Of a stretch of DNA of 64,000 bases, positions 10,562 through 16,354 are shown one piece after another. The stretch lies in NCBI RefSeq assembly GCF_004168255.1, contig NZ_SEWG01000008.1, positions 62,001 through 126,000 of the forward strand, written 5' to 3'. Both the position numbers and the translations under genes were made by a program. The stretch comes from Mucilaginibacter terrigena. Lineage in GTDB: Bacteria; Bacteroidota; Bacteroidia; Sphingobacteriales; Sphingobacteriaceae. Positions within the stretch are counted from its first letter, which is position 1, and each line of letters opens with the position of its first letter. A model generated the notes under the pieces. It saw nothing but the letters and a program-made list of their open reading frames with translations. It had not been told where the DNA came from and did no database searches.

Positions 10562-11110
10562 TTATTCTTTTTCGCTTTTGGCAGTTTCATTTATACCACC
10601 TTCGGCAATTTGGGTAAGCAGTCCATCGCAGTTTTTTTCTTCCTGCAGGGTAGCATCCAACAGTTCGGCCGCTTCGGCATAGCCTAATGTGCGGGCCAGT
10701 GTTTTTAACGTACCGTACGATGCAATTTCGTAGTGCTCTATTTTTTGCGCTGCCGATATAATACCTGCATCGCGGGTTAAAGTACCTTTTTCAGTTTCAG
10801 AAATGATCTCTTCCCCTTCTTTCAATAAACCAGCCATCGCTTCGCATTTTACGGCAACGGCTTTTTCATCGATAGATGCAAAAGCGCTCTCCAGGCGGGT
10901 TATCTGGTTCTCAGTTTCTGCCAGGTGATTTTCAATAGCCGTACGCAATTCATCAGAAGTTGCAGCTTTTGCCATTTTAGGTAAGGCTTTTGCCAGGTGT
11001 TTTTCGGCCCAGTAAATGTCCTTTAATTCGTCAAGAAACAATTCGTTAAGTGCCGATTCTTCTACATTGTCTGTAGTTTCGGGAGCTTTTTTTGTTTTAG
11101 TAGTTGCCAT
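10562..11110 (-). CDS. DUF892 (YciE/YciF-like) ferritin-like protein
   Basis: A 182-residue helical protein of the YciF/DUF892 family. It has LNELFLDELKDIYWAEKHLAKALPKM at about 19-44, then repeated E-x-x-H type pairs (HLAETENQ, KIEHYEIASYGTL) that build the diiron-like ferritin bundle. Family members are induced by osmotic and oxidative stress; enzymatic activity is unproven. The N-terminus (TKTKKAPETTDNVEE) is a charged tail. It lies beside Ku and near a DUF2383 protein, in what looks like a stress-protection block. Confidence 0.88.
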   Translation of the reverse strand: MATTKTKKAPETTDNVEESALNELFLDELKDIYWAEKHLAKALPKMAKAATSDELRTAIENHLAETENQITRLESAFASIDEKAVAVKCEAMAGLLKEGEEIISETEKGTLTRDAGIISAAQKIEHYEIASYGTLKTLARTLGYAEAAELLDATLQEEKNCDGLLTQIAEGGINETAKSEKE

Positions 11111-11201
11111 GTGAGTAGATGTTTTATTTTAACTTGTGTATGATATAACACACCTACAGGTTTTAAGTTTTACTTATATGATAATTATTTAATTATAAAT
11201 A

Positions 11202-11972
11202 CTATGCGCCTTTTTTAGTTTTCAGGCTTTCCATCAGTTGTTCATAAAGGTCGTTGCTTTTGGTTTTATGTGGTTTAAGCTTTTTAATAGTAGCCCGTTT
11301 GCCTTTTGATTTTGCCTTGATGATTTTCAATAACTCATCGTTATACTCGTCTTTAAATTTAGATACATCAAAAGCTTCGGCATACTGCTTGATCAGGGCA
11401 AGGCCTACATCAAGTTCCTTTTTGCTGATGTTTACATCATCCGCTATATTCAGTTCGTCGGTATCGCGGATCTCCTGCCCAAAGCGGATACGGGTTATCA
11501 CCAGTACGTTATCAACCGGGTGCACAATGCACAAGCTTTCGGTACTGCGCAGTACAAAACGGGCTAAGCCCGCCTTACCCGATTTTTTGAGGGCCTGCAG
11601 CAGCAGCGCATAAGCCTTATTATTTTTGGTATCGGGTTCGGTATAGTACGATGTTTCGTAAAACATAGGGTTTACATCGGTTATATCAACAAAGCTTTCA
11701 ATTTCCACCACTTTGCTTTTTTCGGGCGCGGCCGCTTCAAAATCGGCCGCTTCTACAATTACGTAATCATCGTTAAGCTTATAACCTTTCACAATTTTAT
11801 CATAAGGCACTTCCTTGTGGGTTTTCTCGTTCACCCGCTGGTAGCGGATGCGTTCGTGGTCGCGCGAATCCAGCATATCCAGGTCGATAGAACTGGTTTG
11901 TACAGCCGAATACAATTTAACAGGTATGCTTACCAACCCAAAGCCAAGCGAGCCTTTCCATATCGATCTCAT
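11202..11972 (-). CDS. ku: Ku protein, non-homologous end joining
   Basis: Bacterial Ku homodimers encircle broken DNA ends and recruit LigD. The N-terminus (MRSIWKGSLGFGLVSIPVKLY) is the family hallmark, and the core GLARFVLRSTESLCIV plus LVITRIRFGQEIRD fit the beta-barrel. Length 256 residues is typical. The Lys-rich C-terminal tail (KAKSKGKRATIKKLKPHK) could bind DNA. No ligD is in this window, so the ligase partner must lie elsewhere or be another ligase. Confidence 0.95.
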   Translation of the reverse strand: MRSIWKGSLGFGLVSIPVKLYSAVQTSSIDLDMLDSRDHERIRYQRVNEKTHKEVPYDKIVKGYKLNDDYVIVEAADFEAAAPEKSKVVEIESFVDITDVNPMFYETSYYTEPDTKNNKAYALLLQALKKSGKAGLARFVLRSTESLCIVHPVDNVLVITRIRFGQEIRDTDELNIADDVNISKKELDVGLALIKQYAEAFDVSKFKDEYNDELLKIIKAKSKGKRATIKKLKPHKTKSNDLYEQLMESLKTKKGA

Positions 11973-14530: not shown

Positions 14531-15820
14531 ATGGATCAGTATTTCATTATAGATTTCGACAGCACCTTTACACAGGTAGAAGCTTTAGACGAATTAGCGC
14601 GTATCTCATTAAAAAATCATCCCGACAGGGAAGCTATCTATAAAAAGATAGAAGACCTTACCAACGCCTCGATGGAGGGGCGCCTCTCGTTCACCGAAAG
14701 CCTGGAACAAAGGGTTAAGCTGCTTTGCGCCAACCGCGACCACCTGAAAATGCTGATAACCCATTTAAAAAAGAAAGTTTCCACTTCGTTTTCGCGCAAT
14801 ACCATATTTTTTAAGAACCACCAGGATAAGGTGCTCATTGTATCGGGCGGGTTTAAGGAGTTTATTACGCCCGTGGTTACCGAGTATCATATAAAAAAAG
14901 AAAACATTTACGCCAACACCTTTGTGTTTGATGAGGAAGGCAATATTATTGGGTACGACCGCGGGAACCCCCTATCGCAGGAGGGCGGCAAGGTTAAGTT
15001 GTTAAAAGAATTAAACCTGCCCGGCGAGATCTTTGGTATTGGCGACGGCTACTCGGATTTTCAGCTGAAGGAATCGGGCATGATCAAAAAATTCTTTGCC
15101 TTTACCGAAAATATCGAGCGTAAATCCGTCGCCGAAAAAGCCGACCATATAACCCCCAGTTTCGACGAGTTTTTATACATCAATAAACTGCCAAGGGCCA
15201 TATCCTACCCAAAAAACCGTATAAAATGCCTGGTGGTGGGTAATATAGATGAGGAAGCTTTAGCCCAAATGAAACGCGAGGGCTATAACTTGCGCCATCG
15301 CGATAGCATAGAAGAAAAATATCTTGACGAAGCCGGCGTACTGTTTTGTGATGAAGCAAACCTGCCCAGGCCCGAACAGCTTACCAACGCCGGCCGCTTA
15401 AAGGTAATTGGTTGTTTCGGCCGTGTAAACCGTAAACTGGCCGAGGCTGCCTGTGATAAAGGCATTATTATTTTTGATGACCCAAAAGCCAATCCCCGCA
15501 ATACGGATTTTATCCCCCGCAGGGTGATAGCTTTTATGAACGAGGGTAAAACGCACATGAGCTGCAACTTCCCCGATTTGCAGCCACCACGCATTAATAA
15601 TGCACACCGGCTGATACATATCCACAAGAACGTGCCCGGCATACTGGCGCAGATAAACGAGGTTTTTGCCAACCACAACATCAATATTGTTGGCGAGTTT
15701 TTGGTGACCAACCCGCAAATTGGCTATGTAATTACCGATGTTAATACCGGTTACGATACCCACGTACTAAACGAACTGAAAGCCATTGAACAGACGATAA
15801 AGTTCAGGCTGCTTTATTAG
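14531..15820 (+). CDS. Phosphoserine phosphatase-like HAD domain fused to PGDH fragment and ACT domain
   Basis: A 429-residue fusion. Residues 1-210 form a SerB-like HAD-IB phosphatase: DFDST (8-12), SGG (105-107), Lys154 and GDGYSD (171-176) are the four motifs, all intact. Residues ~230-335 look like the first half of the substrate-binding domain of 3-phosphoglycerate dehydrogenase (LTNAGRLKVIGCFGRVNRKLAEAA), but the NAD-binding Rossmann domain that should follow is absent. Residues ~355-429 are the SerA-type ACT domain (LIHIHKNVPGILAQINEVF). It likely dephosphorylates phosphoserine, with ACT-mediated serine sensing. No frameshift seen. Confidence 0.85.
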   Translation: MDQYFIIDFDSTFTQVEALDELARISLKNHPDREAIYKKIEDLTNASMEGRLSFTESLEQRVKLLCANRDHLKMLITHLKKKVSTSFSRNTIFFKNHQDKVLIVSGGFKEFITPVVTEYHIKKENIYANTFVFDEEGNIIGYDRGNPLSQEGGKVKLLKELNLPGEIFGIGDGYSDFQLKESGMIKKFFAFTENIERKSVAEKADHITPSFDEFLYINKLPRAISYPKNRIKCLVVGNIDEEALAQMKREGYNLRHRDSIEEKYLDEAGVLFCDEANLPRPEQLTNAGRLKVIGCFGRVNRKLAEAACDKGIIIFDDPKANPRNTDFIPRRVIAFMNEGKTHMSCNFPDLQPPRINNAHRLIHIHKNVPGILAQINEVFANHNINIVGEFLVTNPQIGYVITDVNTGYDTHVLNELKAIEQTIKFRLLY

Positions 15821-15883: not shown

Positions 15884-16354
15884 CTATTCCTCAACCAATG
15901 GTACCACCAGCACCGGCACATGCGAGTTACGTACCACCGTTTCGGCAACACTGCCCATCAGCAGCCTGTCTATACCCGTGCGGCCATGTGTGCCTATAAC
16001 GATAAGGTCGGCCTTAAACTCTTTGCTGCAGCTTAAAATGCCGTCCGCTGTAGATCCATATTCGTTAAAATGGGTAACCTGCAATCCTTTAGCATATTTT
16101 TTTACCGTGCGCTCTATAACGCTTTCGGCTTGGTCTTTCTGGATGTCCAACAAATTCATTTCGTTGTAATTGGCGGTTTCTATCGGTAAACCCATAAGAT
16201 TATCGGCGTTGCTCTCGGGCGTTATAGCCGGCTCAACAATGTGCACCAGGCCAACATGGGCATTAAAGGTATGGGCTATATCAAAGCCGTATGATGCGGC
16301 GTATTCGGCAAATTTGCTGTCGTCTATCCCGATAAGTATCTTGCTGATCTTCAT
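15884..16354 (-). CDS. Universal stress protein, UspA family
   Basis: A 156-residue cytoplasmic UspA-type protein. The nucleotide-binding signature G-x2-G-x9-G-S appears as GTHGRTGIDRLLMGS near residues 127-141. The N-terminal strand KILIGIDDS carries the conserved Asp pair. ATP-binding members bind ATP and are induced by starvation or oxygen stress. It stands between the SerB fusion and the CLC gene, transcribed toward the former. Confidence 0.92.
   Translation of the reverse strand: MKISKILIGIDDSKFAEYAASYGFDIAHTFNAHVGLVHIVEPAITPESNADNLMGLPIETANYNEMNLLDIQKDQAESVIERTVKKYAKGLQVTHFNEYGSTADGILSCSKEFKADLIVIGTHGRTGIDRLLMGSVAETVVRNSHVPVLVVPLVEE

Follow-up and report, generated by a model that had tools for sequence, protein, structure and literature searches.

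A SerB-SerA fusion without its NAD domain in Mucilaginibacter terrigena: a likely phosphoserine phosphatase with a predicted serine-sensing module

Introduction

Mycobacterial SerB2 is a phosphoserine phosphatase that carries two N-terminal ACT domains in the same chain (PMC4270767, excerpt). It is inhibited by L-serine, and for MtSerB2 this inhibition is reported to be partial and predominantly competitive (PMC10564941, excerpt). In E. coli SerA, a Type II phosphoglycerate dehydrogenase (PGDH), the ACT domains pair, serine is bound by His344, Asn346 and Asn364', and a Gly336-Gly337 hinge leading from the substrate-binding domain (SBD) to the ACT domain passes the serine signal. The same source sets out the roles of Arg60, Arg240 and His292, records altered ACT residues in serine-insensitive cases, and describes Type III PGDHs, which have no ACT domain, as not serine feedback regulated (PMC6300728, excerpt). 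Fusion within the pathway has been described in oomycetes, where one fused enzyme covers the first two serine steps (PMC2705460, excerpt).

The locus considered here lies in a 64,000-nucleotide stretch of the Mucilaginibacter terrigena genome (contig NZ_SEWG01000008.1, positions 62,001 to 126,000), called the window throughout. Like SerB2, the encoded protein joins a phosphatase to ACT in one chain, and the HAD domain of M. avium SerB (5is2) matches the model of the fusion with Z 15.1. It differs in having one C-terminal ACT domain behind a SerA SBD, against the tandem N-terminal ACT domains of SerB2, and an H/N/N triad, against the serine residues E33, R103 and T136 of MtSerB2 (PMC10564941, excerpt). 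With E. coli SerA it shares the SBD fold, the ACT domain and the serine-binding triad, whereas the NAD domain is missing and Arg60 is replaced. Full-length SerB-SerA fusions from other Bacteroidota families have the same domain order and linker (43-51% identity over the first aligned piece) but possess the NAD domain. A SerB-like HAD and an NAD dehydrogenase also share one chain in the glycerol-3-phosphate dehydrogenase of Dunaliella. We take that dehydrogenase to be complete and its chain to be without an ACT domain. By its entry titles (6iuy) it belongs to another dehydrogenase family, and to an alga. In the literature that we searched, outside of which lay supplements and most subscription papers, we found no description of a short or long SerB-SerA fusion.

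Results

The open reading frame at 14531-15820 (plus strand) begins with ATG and runs for 429 aa with zero internal stops, and its product divides into a phosphoserine phosphatase (residues 1-222), a SerA SBD (227-344) and a SerA ACT domain (355-429). A chance frame at this position was ruled out by full-length relatives with identity of up to 97%; those at 81-97% belong to Mucilaginibacter or to Bacteroidetes bins. The features of the gene are:

14531..15820, plus strand: gene encoding the 429-aa short fusion SerB-SBD-ACT; stop-free frame, matched in 240/251 family genomes
14531..15196, plus strand: phosphoserine phosphatase (HAD-IB) domain, residues 1-222; supported by TIGR01488, phmmer, VIA and the HAD residues
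15203..15223, plus strand: linker SYPKNRI from phosphatase to SBD, residues 225-231; across 17 short and long forms, five of seven columns are invariant and two nearly so
15209..15505, plus strand: first segment of the SerA SBD, residues 227-325; phmmer match to SerA 4-112 and fold match, with Arg60 replaced
15482..15514, plus strand: junction where the long form has its NAD domain, at about residues 318-328; from the alignment of short and long forms
15506..15562, plus strand: second SBD segment (C-terminal helix), residues 326-344; from the alignment to long forms, with a helix at 329-337 in the model
15593..15817, plus strand: ACT domain, residues 355-429; PF22629 at E 1.2e-11 and phmmer match to SerA 310-410
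15623..15631, plus strand: H365 and N367, aligned with His344 and Asn346, which bind serine in E. coli SerA (PMC6300728, excerpt)
15683..15685, plus strand: N385, aligned counterpart of the serine-binding Asn364' (PMC6300728, excerpt)

Searches of PDB chains with phmmer matched residues 5-209 to phosphoserine phosphatases (3kd3, human 1nnl and 6hyy). Residues 224-325 were matched by phmmer, weakly, to E. coli SerA 4-112 (i-Evalue 0.0011), and residues 330-429 to SerA 310-410 (i-Evalue 4.4e-17). Pfam placed HAD (PF12710) and ACT (PF22629) in the one frame, both over cut-off, and detected no NAD-binding domain there (no PF02826 match). The SBD model PF00389 reached E 0.033 against residues 224-330 alone, which is under its cut-off, so the SBD would be missed by routine annotation.

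In SerA the NAD domain is nested inside the SBD, and both SBD segments that flank it are present in the fusion, MNEGKTHMSCNFP being part of the second. The NAD domain itself is absent from the alignment of short against long forms and from the AlphaFold2 models, in which the SBD strands and C-terminal helix are formed and a short loop takes the place of the NAD domain. The full-chain model (pLDDT 70.8, pTM 0.46; alignment of 66 of 81 rows, nearly all from one genus) is poor for the ACT domain and for the relative placement of domains, while the C-terminal part folded separately gave pLDDT 68.4 and pTM 0.53. VIA-align placed predicted residues 227-342 on E. coli SerA 7-330 (2p9g; Z 13.4, 2.9 A), and because just 112 residues align across that span, the NAD domain is skipped in the predicted fold; the separately folded part aligned to SerA 2p9e over 116 residues with Z 14.6. 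Together, Pfam, alignment and predicted structures rule out a hidden Rossmann domain.

An earlier sequence-only reading had described this protein as SerB followed by half a PGDH domain and an ACT domain, with intact HAD motifs and a skipped Rossmann domain, and as something other than a bifunctional enzyme. The fusion and the missing NAD domain hold, and the structure prediction that it had proposed shows no Rossmann fold. The word 'half' does not hold: both segments are kept, and the predicted fold aligns to a whole SerA SBD. When compared with the Type II PGDH active site, the fusion has Asp in the Arg60 column, and the positions of Arg240 and His292 lie in the missing domain; Arg60 is lost in 24/24 short forms. 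With the NAD domain absent and Arg60 replaced, no dehydrogenase activity is therefore expected, and loss of bifunctionality in the short fusion is well supported by these comparisons, as the earlier reading had supposed.

The phosphatase motifs are likewise as that reading had them. All eight residues that we checked, D8, D10, E17, R61, S105, K154, D172 and D176 (HAD motifs I-IV and the substrate Glu/Arg, roles that we assume for a HAD-IB enzyme), are present in the window protein. Across a table of 58 rows (24 short, 32 long and 2 split, hence 56 fused), E17 is kept in 57 and the other seven in all 58. Two sequences stayed outside this table: L075, from genome G404, which is truncated at the edge of a contig, and L199, from G348, which has a broken frame and where assembly errors are likely because the SerA and SerC of that genome are also broken. 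Residues 1-216 align with human PSP 6hyy over 203 residues (VIA-align, Z 18.7, 2.8 A). One long fusion, L202 (G374, f2), presents the reverse case: its dehydrogenase residues are intact, while phosphatase positions have changed, with D in place of E17 and Y in place of G106; it sits on a very long branch (2.47) of the phosphatase tree.

Family-level models were less decisive. TIGR01488 is over cut-off on the phosphatase domain, while the SerB equivalog TIGR00338 scores 70.2 bits against a cut-off of 144.15. In 66 chosen genomes searched with TIGR00338 at E up to 1e-6, none exceeded that cut-off, and the model therefore does not cover this clade. In 62 of the 66 a match below cut-off was found, the highest-scoring one lying in the fusion or in the split phosphatase; the remaining matches were partial and lay in frames of 667-920 aa, apart from one that covered 53 positions in a 274-aa frame. 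In the window genome the TIGR00338 search revealed no second convincing SerB, the two other matches being partial (21-22 bits over 52-57 positions, in frames of 681 and 714 aa). Four genomes of family f1 (G129, G142, G233 and G311) had zero TIGR00338 matches at 1e-6; they are 94-99% complete, have serC-serA, lack the fusion, and are four of the 11 fusion-less family genomes and the sole ones among the 66. Given the score under the TIGR00338 cut-off, we go no further than to call the fusion the organism's most likely phosphoserine phosphatase (SerB), at the last step of serine synthesis; that it would have this activity is supported by its being the sole convincing candidate. The excerpt of the GapMind paper states that mutant data for a Pedobacter strain were used and lists no serine gap (PMC7311316), and these Pedobacter data may already cover the SerB role of the gene.

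Within the family sample, f1, which we take to be Sphingobacteriaceae, the fusion is matched in 240/251 genomes, with one match per genome, and the matches listed run from residue 1-4 to 429 in frames of about 430-500 aa. It is found in 68/72 other genomes of the genus, the four without it being 58-86% complete. The same architecture, which the sequence-only reading had proposed to look for in relatives, is thus family-wide, and a deletion in a single genome is ruled out. A full-length SerB-SerA fusion, its second proposed check, occurs in other families: 32/197 genomes of the class hold one in a single frame of 612-732 aa, and G404 holds a 33rd that is interrupted by contig ends. Among these 197 genomes the short form is carried by seven from family f1 and by two from family f14, and in one of the f14 pair the frame is broken. 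In two genomes (G347 and G479; L211 and L212), a phosphatase of 221-223 aa and an ACT-bearing SerA are adjacent separate genes, possibly a pre-fusion state or the result of fission.

The search of 296 phylum genomes revealed a short form of 431 aa (L216:7839-9134, 60% identity) in G724, which belongs to a different family, f36. In a quick tree it nests in the f1 clade (SH-aLRT 95 for 21 f1 rows plus G724), and horizontal transfer of the whole unit is likely because of that position; in the other f36 genomes with a match, that match was confined to a SerA-ACT-like frame (410-487 aa). The phylum search also returned additional long fusions and apparently unfused phosphatases in G685, G730, G738 and G741, all of which lie outside the alignments.

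Since other families have full-length fusions, we conclude that the NAD domain was lost from a fusion: by these alignments, the short form is a SerB-SerA fusion that has lost its nested NAD domain, leaving a closed SBD and ACT. When a tree was built from the phosphatase domain, with the split genes as root, short forms from f1 fell into one clade (98/93) placed among long forms. A phosphatase-plus-ACT tree, built without L202 and the two split genes, rejected the union of f1 and f14 short forms (AU p 0.0048; p 0.0137 in a quick tree with the f36 copy added). A single origin of all short forms is thereby rejected, and on this topology family f14 is a case of independent NAD-domain loss. In both trees the branch leading to the f14 row is long, so its exact placement is unsure.

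Dehydrogenase function appears to be eroded in some long forms as well. Four of the 32 aligned long forms, L078 (f25), L200 and L201 (f11) and L206 (f42), have lost Arg60 and Arg240, and all of these but L078 have lost His292 as well. In the remaining 28, Arg60, Arg240 and His292 are kept together with Asn108 and Glu269, which we take to be dehydrogenase residues of SerA too. Four switches between a kept and a lost dehydrogenase are required on the best tree, or three if only its well-supported branches are counted, and the ACT site persists through each of them; support for placing f11 together with f1 is weak (64/32).

The three parts of the protein have diverged unequally. For this comparison the long group was limited to intact fusions, leaving out L202 as well as the four long forms in which dehydrogenase residues are lost. 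Mean identity between short and intact long forms is 51% in the phosphatase (75% within short, 58% within intact long), 57% in the ACT domain (69% and 63%) and 27% in the first SBD segment (58% and 67%). Among Mucilaginibacter, dN/dS is 0.009 for the phosphatase, 0.022 for the SBD and 0.011 for the ACT domain, calculated from 12-13 unsaturated, non-independent pairs. From the shift in SBD identity combined with low dN/dS we conclude that constraint on the SBD changed with the excision and that the domain is again under selection.

These values bear on whether the short form is a decaying SerB-SerA remnant retained for its phosphatase only. In favour of such decay are the relatives that are full fusions and an SBD without its active-site arginine. 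Set against this are the low dN/dS of both SBD and ACT, a stretch from residue 222 to 360 that measures 139-141 residues in 22 of 23 family rows and 136 in the remaining one, retention across the family and a case in which the entire unit appears to have been transferred horizontally, so that decay is hardly credible. The earlier reading had also seen no decay, which agrees with the low dN/dS in all three domains and with the stop-free frame.

The serine triad of E. coli SerA (His344, Asn346 and Asn364) corresponds to H365, N367 and N385 in the window protein and is kept in 56/56 fused proteins. Together with the ACT-less separate SerA described below, this lends indirect support to the serine-sensing role that the earlier reading had suggested, and leads us to predict that the SBD-ACT part is a serine-sensing module. 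The Gly336-Gly337 hinge is missing from the window protein and from all 17 aligned rows, intact long forms included, and the signal path therefore need not match that of E. coli. The kept triad residues could also serve ACT folding or dimerisation alone. The leftover SerA part would then be a scaffold for dimerisation or stability only, with no serine regulation, a reading to which the pairing of ACT domains in E. coli SerA (PMC6300728, excerpt), the absence of the hinge glycines and the spacer-like SBD, the fastest-diverging of the three parts, all lend some weight. We nonetheless regard it as rather unlikely: the serine-contacting residues persist in every aligned fused protein although Arg60 has gone from every aligned short form, standalone phosphatases of 221-223 aa exist in G347 and G479, and ACT residues are altered in serine-insensitive cases (PMC6300728, excerpt).

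In the window genome, serC and serA lie side by side (G000:C1:436356-438466), on contig C1 and apart from the fusion gene on contig C8. The free SerA, of 317 aa, matches PF00389 and PF02826 and has no ACT domain by Pfam, which makes it Type III. We defined a free SerA as one scoring at least 224 bits to that of the window genome (the next matches, at most 156 bits, are fusions or other dehydrogenases). Of 25 family genomes with the short form that were examined, 24 have one, and it adjoins serC in 24/24; the genome without it, G128, is 71% complete. That the free SerA lacks ACT was established by Pfam in the window genome and from frame lengths of 315-345 aa elsewhere. Free SerA is also present in both f14 genomes, in each of the four genomes whose long fusion has lost dehydrogenase residues, and alongside other long fusions in 18 genomes, of which the 17 scored for residues are all intact; it is absent from 11 genomes with intact long fusions and from the two split genomes. 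Counted by family, dehydrogenase loss occurs in 5/11 with free SerA and 0/3 without, which is the expected direction and is not significant (Fisher one-sided p 0.23).

The co-occurrence of the short form with a serC-linked SerA lacking ACT would also suit a module that works in trans, the SBD-ACT part docking on the free Type III SerA (or on SerC) to give serine feedback at the first step, with the phosphatase as a regulatory subunit. The ACT model matched, PF22629, is of the kind found in the AHAS small subunit, which we take to be a family of regulatory subunits. The fusion gene is not adjacent to serC-serA, and we consider this arrangement improbable.

An operon with serine genes was rejected, as the neighbours are an amino-acid permease, an open reading frame without a Pfam match, a universal stress protein (Usp), a chloride channel and others. 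The Usp gene (window 15884-16354, minus strand) is convergent with the fusion, and a Usp-like gene is found in the flank of 75/80 named loci. Upstream of the fusion, at 10562-11972 on the minus strand, a DUF892 gene stands beside a bacterial Ku gene (DNA end joining); Ku occurs in the flank of only 10/80 named loci, with flanks of at most 4 kb.

Discussion

The explanation that we favour, and think probable from the comparisons above, is that the fusion is a phosphatase with an inherited serine-sensing module, by which feedback has shifted to the last step of the pathway. An ancestral SerB-SerA fusion lost its NAD domain, and the allosteric part of SerA would have stayed on SerB. Two ACT domains would pair as in E. 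coli SerA, and L-serine would bind between them at H365, N367 and N385'; we propose an ACT-bridged dimer because the dimer interface of the NAD domain is gone. Movement would then pass through the SBD to the phosphatase and slow it, although the path by which ACT would reach the active site is conjectural because the models are weak on the ACT domain and on domain arrangement. Serine feedback, lost at the first step with an ACT-less SerA, would in this way act at the last. Mycobacterial SerB2 demonstrates that serine can act on a phosphoserine phosphatase bearing ACT domains, there by way of different residues and in the opposite domain order (PMC10564941, excerpt). Against such a shift stand the 17 genomes that hold a free SerA plus a long fusion with intact dehydrogenase residues, the non-significant link by family between free SerA and dehydrogenase loss, and the partial, predominantly competitive nature of the inhibition in MtSerB2.

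Considered more broadly, these genomes provide a natural series, from separate serB and serA through full fusions and fusions with residue loss to two independent NAD excisions, with the ACT serine site in every aligned fused protein. This poses a general question: can an allosteric module be kept, and passed to the adjoining catalytic domain, once its own catalytic domain dies? If our preferred explanation is correct, automatic annotation of these fusion genes would be incomplete. Should the module instead act in trans on free SerA, one leftover module would couple the enzyme that opens the pathway to the one that completes it. On the explanation that we favour, serine synthesis in the family would be controlled at its last step.
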